A stretch of DNA of 47,949 nt from Nitrospirota bacterium. GTDB lineage: Bacteria > Nitrospirota > Thermodesulfovibrionia > UBA6902. Under the pieces are notes generated by a model. It did not search any database. It was not told the origin of the DNA and was given only the letters and a program-made list of their open reading frames with translations. The DNA is taken from contig JACRMS010000001.1 in assembly GCA_016214845.1 (NCBI GenBank), positions 1 to 47,949 of the forward strand. Reading direction: 5' to 3'. Made by a program: the position numbers and the translations under genes. The number at the start of each line of letters is the position of its first letter. The stretch's first letter is position 1. Below are positions 31,982-40,749 of the stretch, in pieces.

Positions 31982-33970
31982 ATGAAGAAATACGAAATCA
32001 AGACATCTTCCGCTTTTAAACCTTCAATAGATTATTCATCGTATCTCAATTCTGAACAGCTCAACGCGGTAACGTCCGGCCACGGCCCGTCTCTTGTCAT
32101 TGCCGGAGCTGGCTCGGGAAAGACAAGGGTTGTTACTTATAAGGTAGCATATCTTATGGAAAAAGGCATACCCCCTTCAAGAATAATGCTTCTTACCTTT
32201 ACCAACCGGGCGGCGCGTGAAATGCTCCACAGGGTGGAGCTTCTGATAAAGGGAGAGGCAAGAAAGGTATGGGGCGGTACGTTTCATCACACCGGCAATA
32301 TTATCCTCCGGCAATATGGCGATGAGGTCGGGCTGAACACCAATTTCACAATCCTTGACAGTGAAGACACGAAAGACCTCATAGACTCCTGTGTAGCCGA
32401 GCTTAACCTGAGGGCGGACAAGATGTTTCCAAAGGGAAAGATAATCCTTGAGGTCATTAATCGCGCAACAGGCTCTGAAAGGACGATTGCCGATGTAATT
32501 GAGAATGACTTCTCGTACCTTCTCGTTTTCGCGCAAGAGATAGAGAAGGTGAGTGAGCTGTATGTTAAAAAGAAGAAGGCCATGAGCCTCGTGGACTTTG
32601 ACGACCTGCTTTATTACTGGAAAAAGATCTTAGTTGAGGCCCCGGCGATAAAAGAAAAACTTTCAGACAGGTTTCTCTACATCCTTGTGGATGAATATCA
32701 GGACACAAATAAAATCCAGGCGGAGATAGTCGACCTTATGGCATCAAAACACAGAAACCTCATGGTGGTCGGGGATGACGCCCAGTCCATTTATTCTTTC
32801 AGGGGCGCGTGCTTTGATAACATAATAAACTTCCCGGAGAGATATCCCGACGCAAAGATCTTCAAACTCACCACAAACTACAGGAGCACCGAAGAAATCC
32901 TGGCCCTTGCAAATGAGAGCATCTCCTGCAACAGGAGGCAATTCCCGAAGTCACTGGATTCGGTCCAGAGAAGGGGCGCCCTGCCCGCGCTCGTGCCTCT
33001 TCAAAATTTATCGCAGGAAGCGGAGTTTGTATCGCAGCGGATACTCGACCTCATTGACGAAGGCGTGCCGCTGAAAGACATTGCGGTCCTCTACCGTTCG
33101 CATTATCAGTCCATGGAATTACAGATGGAGCTGACAAGGAGAAGGATACCGTACGAGGTGCGGTCGGGCATGAGGTTCTTTGAACAGGCGCACATAAAAG
33201 ACATCATCTCATACCTGAGGGCCGCCTTAAATCCGATGGATGAGATTTCCTGGACCAGGATTTTGAAGCTCATCCCCGGTATAGGAAACGTGACCGCAAA
33301 AAAGGTCTGGGAATTCATCAGGGCCTCGGAACATCCCTTTGAGACGGCAGTGTCGGAGGACATCACAAAGATGCTTTCACGCAGGGCAAAGGACAACTGG
33401 AAGACATATAAAACAAGCCTTGAGACGTTAAAAGACGAAACCGTTTTAAACCACCCCGCAGAGGCAATAAGGGAGATACTTGAGAGTGGTTACATTGCCT
33501 ACCTGCAAAGCAATTATGAAAACTACGAAGACAGGCTGGAGGACATCGAGCAACTGTCAAATTACTCCGGGCACTTTCAATCCACAAGAGAATTTCTGAG
33601 CGACCTTGCCCTGCTGACAAGTGTTCAGGCAGAAGATGTAGTCGAGCCGGAAGAAGAATCTGAATCGATTGTCCTCTCTACCATTCACCGCGCAAAGGGG
33701 CTGGAGTGGTCCAGGGTATTTATGATCGGGCTTGCGGACGGCAGTTTTCCAACTTCAAAATCCATGGGCAGCCTTCAGGGGGAGGAAGAGGAGAGGAGGG
33801 TTTTTTACGTTGCCGTCACAAGGGCAAAGGACGAACTCTATCTCTGCTATCCTGTCATGGATGACAGATGGCAGGGCGGCTCCATTATAAAAAGGCCCTC
33901 TCAGTTTATCCAGGAGCTGCCGGAGAGGACTTACGAGAAGTGGGAGATAGAGGGACAGGAAGCCGGATAG
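31982..33970 (+). CDS. UvrD/Rep/PcrA-type superfamily 1 DNA helicase
   Basis: 662 residues. SF1A motifs in order: Q motif LNSEQLNAV, motif I AGAGSGKTR (Lys47), Ia LTFTNRAAREM, II ILVDEYQDTN, III VVGDDAQSIYSFRG, IV LTTNYRS, V STIHRAKGLEW, VI RVFYVAVTRAKDELYL. It is a 3'-5' helicase for repair or replication restart. It lacks the C-terminal extension of some UvrD proteins. Its 3' end overlaps the convergent sensor kinase gene by 65 bp. Confidence 0.92.
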   Translation: MKKYEIKTSSAFKPSIDYSSYLNSEQLNAVTSGHGPSLVIAGAGSGKTRVVTYKVAYLMEKGIPPSRIMLLTFTNRAAREMLHRVELLIKGEARKVWGGTFHHTGNIILRQYGDEVGLNTNFTILDSEDTKDLIDSCVAELNLRADKMFPKGKIILEVINRATGSERTIADVIENDFSYLLVFAQEIEKVSELYVKKKKAMSLVDFDDLLYYWKKILVEAPAIKEKLSDRFLYILVDEYQDTNKIQAEIVDLMASKHRNLMVVGDDAQSIYSFRGACFDNIINFPERYPDAKIFKLTTNYRSTEEILALANESISCNRRQFPKSLDSVQRRGALPALVPLQNLSQEAEFVSQRILDLIDEGVPLKDIAVLYRSHYQSMELQMELTRRRIPYEVRSGMRFFEQAHIKDIISYLRAALNPMDEISWTRILKLIPGIGNVTAKKVWEFIRASEHPFETAVSEDITKMLSRRAKDNWKTYKTSLETLKDETVLNHPAEAIREILESGYIAYLQSNYENYEDRLEDIEQLSNYSGHFQSTREFLSDLALLTSVQAEDVVEPEEESESIVLSTIHRAKGLEWSRVFMIGLADGSFPTSKSMGSLQGEEEERRVFYVAVTRAKDELYLCYPVMDDRWQGGSIIKRPSQFIQELPERTYEKWEIEGQEAG

Positions 33971-35900
33971 AAAAAGTCGTCCCCCTGTCAGACGTTTTTT
34001 CAAGATGGATCTCGCCGTGATGCTGCTCAATAAGCTTTTTCGTGACCGCTAATCCAAGTCCGGTCCCTTTAGACTTTGTCGTAAAAAACGGCTTAAATAT
34101 CCGGTCCTTCATTTTACCGGCAATCCCTGTTCCTGTATCGGAGACGGTTACCTCAATGGAATGCGTATCCGGCTGATAAAATGTTCTGAAGACCAATTCC
34201 CCGCCCGTTGGCATTGCGTCCACGGCATTTATTATCAGGTTTAAAAAAGCCTGCTGCAATTGAAAAGGGTCTGCCATTATTTCCGGCACCATGCCGTCAA
34301 ATCCTTTTATGATCTTTACTTCTACTGCCCTTGAGGAGGGGCAGGCATGTTTTAGAGAAAACTCAATGGTCTTATCAAGGAGGTCATTAATATTTACGGT
34401 CATTAACTGAGGCTCGGACTGGGTGACGAATTTCAGGAGGCTGTTTATTGTCAGCTCTATCCTCGCCACCTCATCTATCGACTTTGATAAAATAATTCTG
34501 TCCTCTTCCGAAATGTCATATTCTTTATTGAGCAATTCAATAGATGTTTTGATGCCTGCCAGAGAATTCTTGATACCCTCGGACAGTCCCGTGGCCCATT
34601 CACCGATCAGTTTCATCTGCTCCACCCTTTGAAGCGCTTCCTCGATACGCTTGTGCTCCGTGACATCCTGGACCGTGCCGATCAACCTTGTACTCTCTCC
34701 CTTATCGTTACATATAGTCAGCATTCTGGCGCGGACAAACCTCTCTTCTCCGTCAGAACGAATGATCCTGTATTCAAGGCTTAAAGGCCAATTGCATGAC
34801 GCTGTGGAAAAAATCGTGTCCTTTAACTTCTGCCTGTCATCAGGATGAACAAGGGCAAGAAAGTTGTCCACGGTAGGTTCAAAGCTCTCAGGGTCAACCC
34901 CGAAAATGCTGTACATTTCTTTGGACCAGAACCCCTTTAGATTGACAAGGTCTCTCTCCCAATGGCCCAGATGCGCAACCCCGGCGGCCTCCGCGTAACG
35001 CTCCTCGCTTTTCTTCAGCGCCTCTTCCATTTGCATGCGTTCGGTGATGTTTCTTACTATGTCCGTTGAGCCGGTCACTTTTCCATTCTCAAAGATCGCG
35101 GACGAGTTGATCTCTATATCCAGCCAGCTTCCGTCTTTTGCACGCATCTTCCCGGTAAAGTTTTTATAAGAGCCCCTGCTGCTTAACTCTCCAAACTTTT
35201 CCTTTAGCGCGGGGACCTGGTCCGGGCTGATTACATCAAGGATTTTCATTCTCAGAAATTCCTCTTTTGAATAACCGAATATCTCAACAGCCTTTTTGTT
35301 CACATCAATAAAATTGAAGTCCGGATCCAAAGTGAATATCGCGTCATTTGCGGACTCGACAATTCCCCGGTATTTCTTTTCTGACGCCCTTAGCGCCACC
35401 TCAGAGCTGCGAATGGCCCGGAGAAAGGTGATACGCAGAAATAAAAACCCTCCGAGCCATACAGGCAAAACTATTGCCGTTATGATCCCGGCGCGCATCA
35501 CAACAGGATACAGGGAACGGACAATCTCAATCCGTCCCACGACTTTCCCGGAGTCAAAAAGTTTTGCGCTTTTCATAATGACCGGAGACTTCAGCGGGAC
35601 CTCATTTTTGACGATCAGTTCATTTCGCGTGTTGTATACAAACCTTGACTCAGGGAGTGCCCCTTTCTTTTGCTGCGCTATAAGCTCTTCGATCCTCATT
35701 TGTTCGAATTCCCACATCAGGGGATTAGAGCTGATGATCTGCGTAATTGTGTTCGCCTTGATCTCGGCCTCGGTCTCAAGACTTCCTGATGTATTTTGAT
35801 ATGTAATAAGAAAATATCCGAGGGGGAAAATAACGGTCCCGCTAAACATAAGCGCGGTTGACAGCCAGGTAATGATGCGGGTCAATTTTGCGGTCTTCAC
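33906..35900 (-). CDS. PAS sensor histidine kinase-like protein lacking the phosphoacceptor His
   Basis: 664 residues, GTG start 2 bp after the upstream binding-protein gene. Layout: membrane helix (about 10-33), periplasmic segment with RFVYNTRNELI, second helix (about 135-157), PAS (about 175-290), second PAS/PAC (about 300-420), dimerisation helix, HATPase_c. The ATPase motifs are intact: N box FLNLIINAVDAM, G1 VSDTGTGIA, F box FKPFFTT, G2 GTGLGLAV. In the H box, where relatives read GxxAHEIxNPL, this protein reads ATGLSEGIKNSLAGI, with Glu441 replacing His. It may bind ATP without autophosphorylating, or act as a regulator of another kinase. The tail beyond RLPV overlaps the helicase gene. 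Confidence 0.85.
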   Translation of the reverse strand: MKTAKLTRIITWLSTALMFSGTVIFPLGYFLITYQNTSGSLETEAEIKANTITQIISSNPLMWEFEQMRIEELIAQQKKGALPESRFVYNTRNELIVKNEVPLKSPVIMKSAKLFDSGKVVGRIEIVRSLYPVVMRAGIITAIVLPVWLGGFLFLRITFLRAIRSSEVALRASEKKYRGIVESANDAIFTLDPDFNFIDVNKKAVEIFGYSKEEFLRMKILDVISPDQVPALKEKFGELSSRGSYKNFTGKMRAKDGSWLDIEINSSAIFENGKVTGSTDIVRNITERMQMEEALKKSEERYAEAAGVAHLGHWERDLVNLKGFWSKEMYSIFGVDPESFEPTVDNFLALVHPDDRQKLKDTIFSTASCNWPLSLEYRIIRSDGEERFVRARMLTICNDKGESTRLIGTVQDVTEHKRIEEALQRVEQMKLIGEWATGLSEGIKNSLAGIKTSIELLNKEYDISEEDRIILSKSIDEVARIELTINSLLKFVTQSEPQLMTVNINDLLDKTIEFSLKHACPSSRAVEVKIIKGFDGMVPEIMADPFQLQQAFLNLIINAVDAMPTGGELVFRTFYQPDTHSIEVTVSDTGTGIAGKMKDRIFKPFFTTKSKGTGLGLAVTKKLIEQHHGEIHLEKTSDRGTTFSIRLPVPLSPTSRKSSPAAPG

Positions 35901-35902
35901 AA

Positions 35903-36757
35903 TTAGTTGTCAGGATTACCCGGCAATACCAAATGGCCGGATTCTTCCAATATCCTTCTGCCTTCATCTGAAAAGATAAAAGCAATAAATTCCCGGACGC
36001 GCCCGGGAGGCCCCGGTTTGACCACCAGGTATAATGACTTGGAAAGCGGATACCTGCCGTCCGCAAGTGATTTTACGCTTGGGAGTATGCCCTCGTAGGG
36101 AAGAATTTTTACGCGGCGTTTCTCAGAAATGATTTGCGCTAAAGTAGAGAAACCGACTGAACCGGAGACACGTTCAACCAGATCGGCGCAGTCCTGGTCG
36201 GTCAGGGCGATCAACATGCCCGGGCGGGACAAGGCGGCGTCAACAGCTTTGCTCATTTCCGGGGACATCCCTTTTATGGCAAGTGTGTCGGATTCACCGG
36301 CGGGGCGAAGCACCAGCCGCACCTGTTTTCCATCAGGCCATTGATTGAAATCCCCCCGGTATATCTTAAGAATGTCATCGGTGTTCAAGCCTGTGACCGT
36401 TACGTCCGGATTAGAAATGAGCAAAAGCGGGGTCATGGCATATTTGATTATAGATAGGTTTTTTGAATCCTCATTATCCAGCAAAAGCCTGGAGCTGAGG
36501 CCTATATCTACTGCACCCTTACTGACTGCCTTGATACCGCCGGTGCTGCCCAGGCTGGGCATGACCTCGACCTTGACGTCAGGATGGGATTTCTCAAAGG
36601 CAGCGGCAAGAAGCTTCATTGGACCAAGGGCGTTGCCGGTGCCCCCTATTTTCAGGACCTCTTCCGCGTATGCAGGCTGGATGTGTATCAGAACTGAAAT
36701 TACAAGCGCGGCTATAAAATTCCGCACAAAATGTTTCACACTACAATGCGTCGACAT
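35903..36757 (-). CDS. PstS-like periplasmic substrate-binding protein
   Basis: 284 residues with a signal peptide (hydrophobic FIAALVISVLIHI, cleavage near YAEE). The mature part is a type II periplasmic binding fold of the PstS/phosphate-binding kind: IGGTGNALGPMKLLAAAFEK, LGSTGGIKAVSKGAVDIGLS, ILKIYRGDFNQWPDG, LRPAGESDT, KSLYLVVKPG. No transporter genes accompany it; instead it sits 2 bp before the PAS kinase-like gene. It likely serves as a ligand sensor for that protein. Ligand could be phosphate or another oxyanion. Confidence 0.82.
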   Translation of the reverse strand: MSTHCSVKHFVRNFIAALVISVLIHIQPAYAEEVLKIGGTGNALGPMKLLAAAFEKSHPDVKVEVMPSLGSTGGIKAVSKGAVDIGLSSRLLLDNEDSKNLSIIKYAMTPLLLISNPDVTVTGLNTDDILKIYRGDFNQWPDGKQVRLVLRPAGESDTLAIKGMSPEMSKAVDAALSRPGMLIALTDQDCADLVERVSGSVGFSTLAQIISEKRRVKILPYEGILPSVKSLADGRYPLSKSLYLVVKPGPPGRVREFIAFIFSDEGRRILEESGHLVLPGNPDN

Positions 36758-37981: not shown

Positions 37982-38452
37982 TTATTGCTTTTCTGATTTA
38001 ATTGTCTTTAACACATCTTTTAGCACAGGCAGCACGAGTTTATCTTTTGAACGGCCAGCCGCCTGTTTGCTTTTAATAATCAACTCAAGCGGCAGTACCG
38101 ACACTTTAAAATTATCCAGAGATATTTTTATTGCCTGTTTTTTGATTTCGGCATATTCGCCTAAACCATGCACATGAGTTACAATGTCAAAAAGCTTTAC
38201 GTCGTCTCCAGCGAACATAGGAGCGTTGTTTCCAATAGGAGGGATATAAATGGACTTAACTTTTTTTAAGGCTTTAGTTAACTGAGGGTTGGCCAAATCC
38301 GCAAACCAAAGATCAATATCTTGAGTAACAACCGGTGCGCCTTGTAAAGCGGCCGCTGATAGGCCGATAATCATGAAATCAACCTTGTGGCGAACTAATT
38401 CCCGTAGAAAACGGATTTCATTTTTGTTGAATATGAGGTTGTTTTTGACCAC
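37982..38452 (-). CDS. MNT/AbiEii-type nucleotidyltransferase, candidate toxin
   Basis: 156 residues of the polymerase-beta-like nucleotidyltransferase fold. The active motif is visible: Gly30-Leu-Ser32 in IIGLSAAALQG and the Asp pair Asp45/Asp47 in TQDIDLWF. The central part (DVKLFDIVTHVHGLGEYAEI) and LPLELIIKSKQAAGRSKDK fit stand-alone family members found with HTH partners. It starts with GTG inside the end of the HTH gene (35-bp overlap). The pair resembles type IV-like toxin-antitoxin or abortive-infection modules, where the transferase would be the toxin and the HTH protein the antitoxin. That role is inferred from layout. Confidence 0.75.
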   Translation of the reverse strand: MVKNNLIFNKNEIRFLRELVRHKVDFMIIGLSAAALQGAPVVTQDIDLWFADLANPQLTKALKKVKSIYIPPIGNNAPMFAGDDVKLFDIVTHVHGLGEYAEIKKQAIKISLDNFKVSVLPLELIIKSKQAAGRSKDKLVLPVLKDVLKTIKSEKQ

Positions 38453-38795
38453 GGGTCAAGGCCCTCCTTAAACGTTCAATTGGCGGTTCGCGCATTAATA
38501 ATAACGTGTGTCTGATATTGTCCCGGTCAATATTTTTGTATTTCCTGGCTATCTCATCTACTTTATTTAGTAAAAGTTTCATCTTTTCCATCTCTTGATT
38601 ATCTTCGGTAAGAAATTCTGAAGGAGACATATTCAGGCTCTTCGCAATAGCTCTGATAGATTTAGGCAAGACATATTCCTTACGCGCTAATGTATAAAAG
38701 ACATTGCGGCTTACCCCTGCCTGCTTAAGCAGTTCAGAGAGCGTAATATTCTGCTGACGACACTTGTCTTTAATTATTTCGAGTGATATTCTCAT
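38418..38795 (-). CDS. XRE-family HTH regulator, candidate antitoxin
   Basis: 125 residues. The N-terminal helix-turn-helix reads LSELLKQAGVSRNVFYTLAR and continues through IRAIAKSLNMSPSEFL, a standard XRE fold. The C-terminal part is helical and charged (MEKMKLLLNKVDEIARKY) and may contact the partner nucleotidyltransferase encoded by the overlapping next gene. A 21-bp palindrome at 38806-38826 just upstream of the start is the likely operator for autorepression. Confidence 0.8.
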   Translation of the reverse strand: MRISLEIIKDKCRQQNITLSELLKQAGVSRNVFYTLARKEYVLPKSIRAIAKSLNMSPSEFLTEDNQEMEKMKLLLNKVDEIARKYKNIDRDNIRHTLLLMREPPIERLRRALTRGQKQPHIQQK

Positions 38796-38805
38796 GGTAA
38801 ATATA

Positions 38806-38826
38806 GTGTACCATAATATGGTACAC
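38806..38826. promoter_or_regulatory. Palindromic operator of the HTH/nucleotidyltransferase pair
   Basis: Perfect inverted arms GTGTACCATA and TATGGTACAC around a single central A, 10 bp upstream of the HTH start codon. TATATT and TATTAT hexamers in and beside it are possible -10 boxes, so binding would block transcription. Confidence 0.75.
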
Positions 38827-38960
38827 GCAGCAATACTTTTTACTTGTTGACAGTCTTGCGATAAATGTTACATCCTGCAATTATTAAGTGCTTGTTCTGA
38901 TGGCGTGAACATTGGTAGGTATTATCCTCAACGTTTAAGCCCATGGGAATTTATTGACTC

Positions 38961-39206
38961 TTAGATGTTATTGAGGTTTTCTCTCAGCACGGGGAATATG
39001 GGCACACCCCCATATTTATTGTAGAAATACGGGATATGTCCCTGGTCAATCCTTGTATTTGCCCCGGTGTAACCATGATCGATATATGTTTTATACAGCT
39101 TCCAGCCGGAGCGTTTTATAAAATCGCTGAGCTCCTGCAGTTGCATATCAACTTTTTGCTTGTCGGTTGATACCCTGGCATATACGGCAACGGTTTTCTT
39201 TTTCAT
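38961..39206 (-). pseudogene. Truncated serine recombinase (resolvase N-terminus)
   Basis: An 81-codon frame. Residues 1-52 (VAVYARVSTDKQKVDMQLQE, FIKRSGWKLYKTYIDHGYTG) are the start of a resolvase/invertase catalytic domain including the nucleophile Ser in ARVSTDKQ. After YTGANTR the homology stops and an unrelated tail (IPYFYNKYGGVPIFP) runs to the stop. The rest of the catalytic domain and all DNA-binding parts are missing, so it is inactive. It marks the right edge of the HTH/nucleotidyltransferase insert. Confidence 0.8.
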
Positions 39207-39539
39207 GCGCTCATTCCTGTTAAATCAGGGTGCGGAAAAAACCCCTTTAAAATCCGGACTATTAACTTCGTTAAAACAAAGTGTTTTTTATTATACAAAA
39301 TGGTGCGGAAAAAACTAATGTTTTTTCCTCAGTAGAGATCACATCAAATTTATGTGCTATTAGGCAGATAACTGCATAATATGACAAACGGAATATTAGT
39401 CAACACGGTTAGTGTAATGAAGATGAATAGTTACGCCAAATAAACAATTTTTATTTTATTTACTCGGCTAATATTTATGTTATTATCTATAAAATTATCT
39501 AATAACTGGTTGCCCTATACCAATATAAAGGAGGAAACA
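39207..39539. other. AT-rich gap with a 14-bp direct repeat upstream of the TIR operon
   Basis: GGTGCGGAAAAAAC occurs exactly at 39229-39242 and 39302-39315. A related GGTGCGGA occurs at 40759, after the TIR operon. The rest is very AT-rich, with TATTAT/TATAAA hexamers near 39480-39495 that may form the promoter of the TIR genes. No coding frame is supported. Confidence 0.5.
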
Positions 39540-39932
39540 ATGGCAAACAAAAAGAGAGTCTTTATCAGCTTTGATGTTGACCACGACAAAGGCACTAAAG
39601 AAATGCTTGCAGGTCAAGCCAATCTGCCAGATAGCCCGTTCGAGTTTAAGGATGCATCTGTGAAAGAGCCTCTAATTGGTGACTGGAAGGAGAAAGTAAA
39701 ACGGCGTATGGATAATATAGACGTTGTGATTATTCTCTGCGGCGAGAAGACTCATACAGCTACAGGAGTTGCGGCTGAATTGACAATTGCTAAAGATAAG
39801 GGAAAATCATACTTTCTTTTAGCTGCATACTCCGACAAGAATTGTACAAAACCCACATCGGCATCTGCTTCAGACAAAGTCTATAACTGGACATGGCCTA
39901 ATTTAAAGGCCCTTATTGCTGGGGGTAGATAG
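39540..39932 (+). CDS. ThsB-like TIR domain protein (MTH538/DUF1863 type)
   Basis: 130 residues, nearly all one TIR-like domain. Beta-A is KRVFISFDVDHDKGTKEML. The middle has GDWKEKVKRRMDNIDVVIIL, then the helix with the putative catalytic Glu80 (VAAELTIAKDKGK), and SYFLLAAYSD. This matches the MTH538/ThsB group, which in Thoeris anti-phage systems makes a cyclic ADP-ribose-type signal from NAD. The frame is open to 39477, but AGGAGG at 39529-39534 sits 5 nt before the ATG at 39540. It is followed 10 bp later by a second TIR-like membrane protein. No ThsA (SIR2/SLOG) is nearby. Enzymatic activity is inferred from the retained Glu only. Confidence 0.85.
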   Translation: MANKKRVFISFDVDHDKGTKEMLAGQANLPDSPFEFKDASVKEPLIGDWKEKVKRRMDNIDVVIILCGEKTHTATGVAAELTIAKDKGKSYFLLAAYSDKNCTKPTSASASDKVYNWTWPNLKALIAGGR

Positions 39933-39942
39933 GCACTATCCG

Positions 39943-40749
39943 ATGAAATTGTTTATTATACATAGGTTCAAAGAAAGAAGGCAGGCCAAACTGCTTTTTA
40001 AAAAAAGCGGCTTAGAAATGGCTGCAAAATTTGATCTGATTTTTCTTGATAGTGTCAGCTGCAAAGATTGGAAAGACCAAGCGATTAAGGCAATCTCCCA
40101 AGCAGAAACCGTTATAGTTTACGATCGCGAATCTTGCGAGAAATCAGAAAACGCAAAATGGGAAATCAATAAGGCCGGAGAGAGCAATTTGCCTATTGTG
40201 GACATTAATCCTAATGATGCTCCATCTGTAGTGTGTTCAAAGTTGAAACCATACTATGATCTCGAAGCGGAGTTCAGCGAATGCTTCAAGAAAAAAGGTG
40301 GAACAAGTACGCTGGATCTCTACAAGTTGATGATCGAGTCTTCTGAAAGCCTTATTCAGCGACGACAGAAAACAAATGCATTTTTCATAACGGCTATAGG
40401 AAGCCTCTTGGCCATTGCTGGTTTAATGGTAAAGACTGGAGCGTTACATTCTGGTACAATTTGGCTGCTTTATGGGTTTTCTGTGGTGGGTTTTCTATTG
40501 TGCAACTCTTGGAGAAATCTCATAGACAATTATGGGAAGTTAAACAAGGCCAAGTTTGACGTTATCCTACGGCTGGAACAAGACCTTGATGCCCAAATAT
40601 ATGCAGCCGAGTGGGTATCTTTAGGTAAGGGATTGCGTCCACGCAAATACAAATCATTCACTTCAACGGAAAAAAACGTTCCGCTTTATTTCGCGATGCT
40701 CATATTAATCCTTACTCTTATTGCCGTGGGTTGGCAGATAAGTGGCTAA
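39943..40749 (+). CDS. TIR-like domain fused to RipA-like membrane domain, candidate effector
   Basis: 268 residues from the ATG at 39943 (an upstream frame start at 39916 overlaps the previous gene). The N-terminal roughly 95 residues look like a second TIR-type domain: KLFIIHRFK, WKDQAIKAISQAETVIVYDR, the Glu74 helix NAKWEINKAGES, LPIVDINP. After a linker, LYKLMIESSESLIQRRQKTN leads into two hydrophobic helices (about 148-164 and 172-189). A soluble segment NKAKFDVILRLEQDL with EWVSLGKGLRPRKY follows, then a third helix (249-265). The latter part resembles RipA-type membrane proteins; this is recognised by pattern, not by search. It is likely cotranscribed with the ThsB-like gene and could be its membrane-acting effector or sensor. 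Confidence 0.7.
   Translation: MKLFIIHRFKERRQAKLLFKKSGLEMAAKFDLIFLDSVSCKDWKDQAIKAISQAETVIVYDRESCEKSENAKWEINKAGESNLPIVDINPNDAPSVVCSKLKPYYDLEAEFSECFKKKGGTSTLDLYKLMIESSESLIQRRQKTNAFFITAIGSLLAIAGLMVKTGALHSGTIWLLYGFSVVGFLLCNSWRNLIDNYGKLNKAKFDVILRLEQDLDAQIYAAEWVSLGKGLRPRKYKSFTSTEKNVPLYFAMLILILTLIAVGWQISG

Follow-up and report, generated by a model that had tools for sequence, protein, structure and literature searches.

Gene organization and domain architecture

The window, that is the whole stretch of 47,949 nucleotides that was analyzed, carries on its minus strand a gene for a histidine kinase-like membrane sensor preceded by a gene for a periplasmic binding protein. The genes and features considered here are listed below.

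31982-33970, plus strand: UvrD-like helicase gene, convergent with the sensor gene
33906..35900, minus strand: pseudo-histidine kinase (the sensor), 664 aa, GTG start (ORF, Pfam, structure model)
35376..35900, minus strand: sensor module, residues 1-175, made of a TM helix, a small periplasmic alpha/beta domain and a TM helix
34629..35375, minus strand: two cytoplasmic PAS domains, about residues 176-424 (Pfam, structure model)
34416..34628, minus strand: DHp (dimerisation) helices, residues 425-495, phospho-acceptor His absent
34578..34580, minus strand: Glu441 codon (GAG) at the phospho-His position
34566..34568, minus strand: Asn445 codon, position +4 relative to the His position, unchanged in the four family members
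33951..34283, minus strand: core of the CA (ATP-binding) domain, residues 540-650, with the N box (N554, N558), G1 (DTGTGI), F (IFKPFFTTK) and G2 (GTGLGL) boxes (Pfam, alignment, structure model)
35903..36757, minus strand: PstS-like periplasmic binding protein (PF12849), 284 aa

The stop codon of the binding protein lies 2 bases before the GTG of the sensor, whose gene overlaps by its final 65 bases the 3' end of the helicase gene. Pfam recognizes PAS in two regions of the 664-residue protein and HATPase_c with 88.8 bits, while the HisKA match, at 24.9 bits, stays slightly under the cut-off of 26.9; residues 1-175 have no Pfam match. The AlphaFold2 model has a mean pLDDT of 82.8 and a pTM of 0.37, which makes the domain folds usable and their arrangement not. 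In it, two TM-length helices flank the periplasmic alpha/beta domain and are followed by two PAS domains, the DHp helices (residues 414-460 and 465-493) and a CA fold. Foldseek groups this model with histidine kinases including ZraS and HK853, and also with NifL; the nearest kinases to its transmitter are of the AtoS/ZraS type. The HisKA build, a two-helix DHp and a GHKL ATP-binding domain with N, G1, F and G2 boxes, is found by Pfam, alignment, model and Foldseek. Elsewhere in the window, positions 37982-40749 resemble, by eye, a short defence or toxin-antitoxin region: a nucleotidyltransferase-like gene and its HTH partner (37982-38795) occur there together with what may be a TIR-like gene (39477-39932).

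The phospho-acceptor position

The H box of the sensor is GLSEGIKNSLAGI (codons CTG TCC GAG GGT ATC AAG AAT TCT). The first-pass annotation of this DNA had read Glu441 in place of the phospho-His, followed by a Gly instead of a Glu, and both substitutions are confirmed by the ORF codons and by the alignment of orthologs: Glu441 is present in the four family members, and Gly442, shared by the window protein and its closest ortholog (in genome G006), takes the place of the acidic +1 residue of autokinases, which the two more distant members (in G026 and G034) retain as an Asp. The Glu codon was rightly held to be no reading error, as independent assemblies agree on the residue using different synonymous codons, and the N, G1, F and G2 boxes described as intact align in all four members. 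The replacement of Pro by Ser in the same box, which had been listed together with these two, has another standing: Ser also occurs in His-bearing canonical sisters (AHEIKNSLAGI, L002/L018/L058) and is therefore neither part of the His loss nor a mark of degeneration. Relative to these sisters, the residues changed near the site in the four members are the His and the Glu that follows it, now a Gly or an Asp. Asn445, which occupies the +4 position where HisKA phosphatases have a Thr or an Asn, is unchanged.

Whether another His of the dimerisation helices could stand in was considered as an objection. There is no other DHp His in the window protein or the G006 ortholog, and the single one of the distant pair, His461, is absent from these two, leaving none conserved among the four members. 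By sequence and modelled fold, the sensor is a HisKA homologue without the defining His, for which reason pseudo-histidine kinase is the proper annotation. The core is predicted to be unable to autophosphorylate by the usual route, as the phospho-His is gone.

Distribution, descent and selective constraint

A homologue search in the 61 whole genomes around that of the window gave four full-span, high-identity matches, namely the window's own protein, that of G006 (91% amino acid identity) and those of G026 and G034 (47%), the latter two genomes belonging to a genus other than that of the first two. The family thus defined falls in the Nitrospirota, class Thermodesulfovibrionia, and is known from four genomes, all of them metagenome assemblies. 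A family-alignment search of 84,980 species genomes retrieved the same three relatives and one distant ordinary kinase, with search patterns derived from the N-terminal part that family members with another sensor would escape. The H box is SEGIKNSLAGI in the G006 ortholog and AEDIKNSLAGI in the two 47%-identical orthologs; residue 441 is therefore Glu in all and His in none, and the objection of a recent mutation fails.

On a tree of 48 transmitters, a single change accounts for the Glu group (support 91/84), as it does in 93% of the bootstrap trees. His-bearing kinases with AHEIKN(S/A)LAGI, whose genes stand beside NtrC-type regulators, form the sister group. On this tree, the loss of the His is a single event, and an old one. 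Furthermore, dN/dS values calculated by the simple NG86 method on two independent pairs, window-G006 and G026-G034, are respectively 0.135 and 0.127 for the whole gene and 0.067 and 0.064 for the DHp, where each pair has its minimum, and none of the four genes contains a stop or a frameshift. From these ratios, the family is under purifying selection, which is strongest in the His-less helix pair.

The window's genome contains 56 transmitters alignable at the site, with a His in 53, a Glu in one (the sensor) and an Asp in two, so that about one transmitter in twenty lacks the phospho-His. An Asn at +4 is found in 40 of the 53 His-bearing ones; being that frequent in canonical kinases, its retention as Asn445 is weak evidence of function.

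Sensor module and binding protein

The 175-residue sensor module occurs in at least 50 copies in 37 of 230 genomes of class Thermodesulfovibrionia. The outputs of 50 modules (L126-L175) were read and comprise 35 kinases, 11 HD-GYP and three GGDEF or GGDEF-EAL, the remaining copy being truncated where its contig ends. The His is present in 31 of the 35 kinase outputs, the other four being the Glu family, and a PstS-like gene lies directly upstream in 38 of the 50 module-bearing loci. Read across these loci, the sensor is modular, with an output swapped several times and the pseudo-transmitter as one such output. Two of the loci, L142 (G182:C8) and L143 (G006:C71), are 99.9% identical over 6.3 kb although their genomes belong to different families; the contigs are nearly equal in length, and one is probably misbinned.

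The genetic coupling to a PstS-like binding protein, already proposed from the window, extends to the family, with a PF12849 gene directly upstream of the sensor gene in the four genomes. The binding protein is PstS-like according to PDB and NCBIfam matches, the latter with 98.9 bits against a cut-off of 206.6, and in view of these matches it may bind phosphate or some other small anion. We considered the orphan state of the gene pair as a special trait and dropped the idea, since most relatives with the same module, canonical kinases included, are also without an adjacent regulator.

Search for a partner

In none of the four genomes is the sensor gene adjoined by a gene for a response regulator, a sigma-54 activator or a kinase. 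The nearest canonical triad of binding protein, kinase and NtrC is present in the window's own genome (G000), G026 and G036, and G034 has its kinase, at a contig end; it is absent from G006, which rules it out as an obligate partner. A constant partner sought by phylogenetic pattern across the family genomes was not found.

Relation to known systems

To our knowledge, few natural pseudo-histidine kinases are understood, DivL being the main case. The sensor resembles DivL of Caulobacter (PMC4211667) in being a natural HisKA-type transmitter with PAS domains that has lost the phospho-His, conserves this loss across orthologs and keeps the N, G1, F and G2 boxes. Unlike the sensor, DivL is an alphaproteobacterial protein that reads DivK~P and whose site holds a Tyr (or Ala), and no binding-protein partner is described for it; a Nitrospirota membrane sensor with a Glu, paired with a PstS-like protein, lies outside the DivL family. 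With NifL (PMC9866876), the sensor shares the PAS-PAS-H-GHKL build, but NifL has a conserved His, a flavin PAS and NifA as its partner, and the sensor scores 86.4 bits against the NifL model TIGR02938 of NCBIfam (cut-off 242) and has no activator gene beside it. The AioXSR and ArrXSR systems (PMC5908839) likewise have the gene of a periplasmic anion-binding protein directly beside that of a membrane sensor. They combine a PhnD-like protein (AioX or ArrX), a phosphorylating His kinase and a response regulator in the cluster, whereas the sensor has a PstS-like protein, a Glu and no adjacent regulator. By the features compared, the sensor is not DivL, NifL or AioXSR/ArrXSR, although its mode of action may resemble that of one of these.

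Two further comparisons bear on function. The sensor aligns residue for residue at the site with HisKA bifunctional kinases of the CrdS type (PMC3510030), including the Asn at +4; in contrast to CrdS, a working kinase with a His, a Glu and the cognate regulator CrdA, it has both kinase residues replaced. The ChrS pseudokinase variant (PMC9491836) is, as the sensor could be, a dead histidine kinase able to alter the output of a paralogous kinase, but it arose by laboratory evolution through a frameshift in the CA and keeps its His, whereas the sensor has an intact CA and lost its His in nature.

Proposed function

The His-less build of the sensor is real and conserved. Natural pseudo-histidine kinases such as DivL are already known; no published survey of Glu-type pseudo-kinases was found in the literature searched. 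Since the His is lost in all relatives of the same build that were found and yet the site is tightly conserved, the sensor probably acts on a partner by turning it off or adjusting it, and not by phosphorylation. The reading that we favor, at a probability a little short of even, is that of a conserved kinase-dead transmitter which is gated by the periplasmic binding protein and dephosphorylates or binds a response regulator. The PstS-like protein would bind a small anion in the periplasm and then, as the conserved gene pairing suggests, dock on the 175-residue membrane module, as is presumed for relatives in which the same module bears kinase, HD-GYP or GGDEF outputs. The signal would pass through the two PAS domains to the DHp/CA core, whose intact boxes point to ATP or ADP binding. 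There, usual autophosphorylation should be impossible with the His gone, judging by the sequence and the established HisKA mechanism. The DHp helix pair would instead dephosphorylate or sequester a phosphorylated regulator charged by another kinase, most likely of the NtrC/AtoC type.

This proposal draws on CrdS (PMC3510030), in which an alanine scan separates the two activities. H371 and E372 are required for the kinase, the E372A, D, G and Q variants are kinase-dead and phosphatase-competent, H371A retains most phosphatase activity (the regulator has a half-life of 2.6 min with it and of 53.5 min when no protein is added), and the phosphatase cannot do without N375. In the sensor, both kinase-only residues are replaced and the phosphatase Asn445 is kept, and in the light of CrdS the simplest reading would be a transmitter without kinase that still meets its regulator at the DHp face. 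We suggest that this pattern fits a phosphatase or binder of a phosphorylated regulator at least as well as the two modes put forward in the first-pass annotation, conformational action and heterodimerisation. Against a phosphatase, a His mutant of PleC lost phosphatase activity too (PMC3510030), and in DivL, the pseudo-kinase studied in most depth, both activities are absent (PMC4211667).

In another explanation, which we hold to be possible but doubtful, the sensor regulates allosterically in the way of DivL or NifL: its DHp/CA would have no phosphatase chemistry and would only bind proteins, through a surface whose state depends on the periplasmic signal and on ADP/ATP. The DivL and NifL models both operate without phosphorylation by their own core, the NifL transmitter acting by nucleotide-dependent contact with a sigma-54 activator (PMC9866876), and a chain of the NifL-NifA complex ranked third in the whole-protein fold search, with DivL among the PDB sequence matches. 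The strong constraint on the phosphatase residue N445 and the DHp helices speaks against a purely allosteric role, as does the lack of an adjacent sigma-54 activator or kinase gene. Unlikely, in our estimate, is a subunit that pairs with a canonical kinase, to which it would add a periplasmic input and whose His its CA would phosphorylate in trans, or which it would block. Heterodimers of paralogous kinases are documented (PMC9491836), the CA boxes are intact and the DHp resembles that of a co-resident canonical kinase (L002, AEQMRLVGEWAAGLAHEIKNSLAGIK), but the closest paralog, whose transmitter is only about 46% identical, does not occur in G006, and the partner search gave no constant candidate. 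Because of this last result and of the frequency of Asn at +4, the allosteric and heterodimer explanations both stay viable.

Phosphate signalling by an unusual route, for instance an acyl phosphate on Glu441 or a different His, is very improbable in spite of an ATP site that appears intact: the window protein and its close ortholog have no DHp His, His461 of the distant pair is unshared, and the +1 catalytic acid is a Gly in two of the four members, a change that makes CrdS kinase-dead (E372G). A decaying gene or an assembly error, which the small number of genomes and their metagenomic origin might suggest, is hardly credible given independent assemblies that concur with different codons, a dN/dS of 0.13 that is lowest in the DHp, the lack of stops and the preserved gene pair.

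With a single-event loss, close canonical sisters and a defined periplasmic input, the family is a clean case of a natural pseudo-histidine kinase, for which the residue pattern predicts phosphatase without kinase activity, dependent on Asn445. It would bear on the repurposing of two-component proteins and on how many annotated 'histidine kinases' of environmental genomes lack a kinase role.

Other transmitters without the phospho-acceptor His

The two Asp-type transmitters of the window's genome, ADRIRN (C17) and ADKIRN (C33), both retain the Asn at +4. The first (G000:C17:44678-45697, L214/L232; homologs L233-L261) represents a separate His-less family, VADR(I/V)RNPA, with an Asp at the phospho-His position, an Arg or Lys at +1 and an Asn at +4 in the 30 loci of the class that were fetched (30/30), and no description of it was found in the literature searched. 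The second (G000:C33:1831-2808, L219/L262), with the motif GIADKIRNRV, has an ortholog only in G006 (L263, 95% identity) among 41 genomes.

The spacing of an acid and an amide by three residues is that of the CheZ and HisKA_3 phosphatases (DxxxQ; quoted in PMC3510030), and by this parallel the His loss would create a two-residue phosphatase site. It is conceivable, if rather improbable, that His-less HisKA transmitters arose repeatedly in Nitrospirota as ligand-gated response regulator phosphatases, the acid four residues before the conserved Asn (Glu in the sensor, Asp in the two other lineages) then being a new catalytic site and not a mere kinase loss.

Gln-type kinases (AQEIRNPLAGI) were also encountered, at L043:7861-9714 and L044:9219-11066, with a PhnD-like binding protein. 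Such kinases (L014/L015) were considered as members of the Glu family and ruled out by their different sensor, their PhnD-like binding protein and their separate position on the tree. A gene for an ArrA-like arsenate reductase lies near the L043 copy and one for a related molybdopterin reductase near the L044 copy, which carries an in-frame stop.
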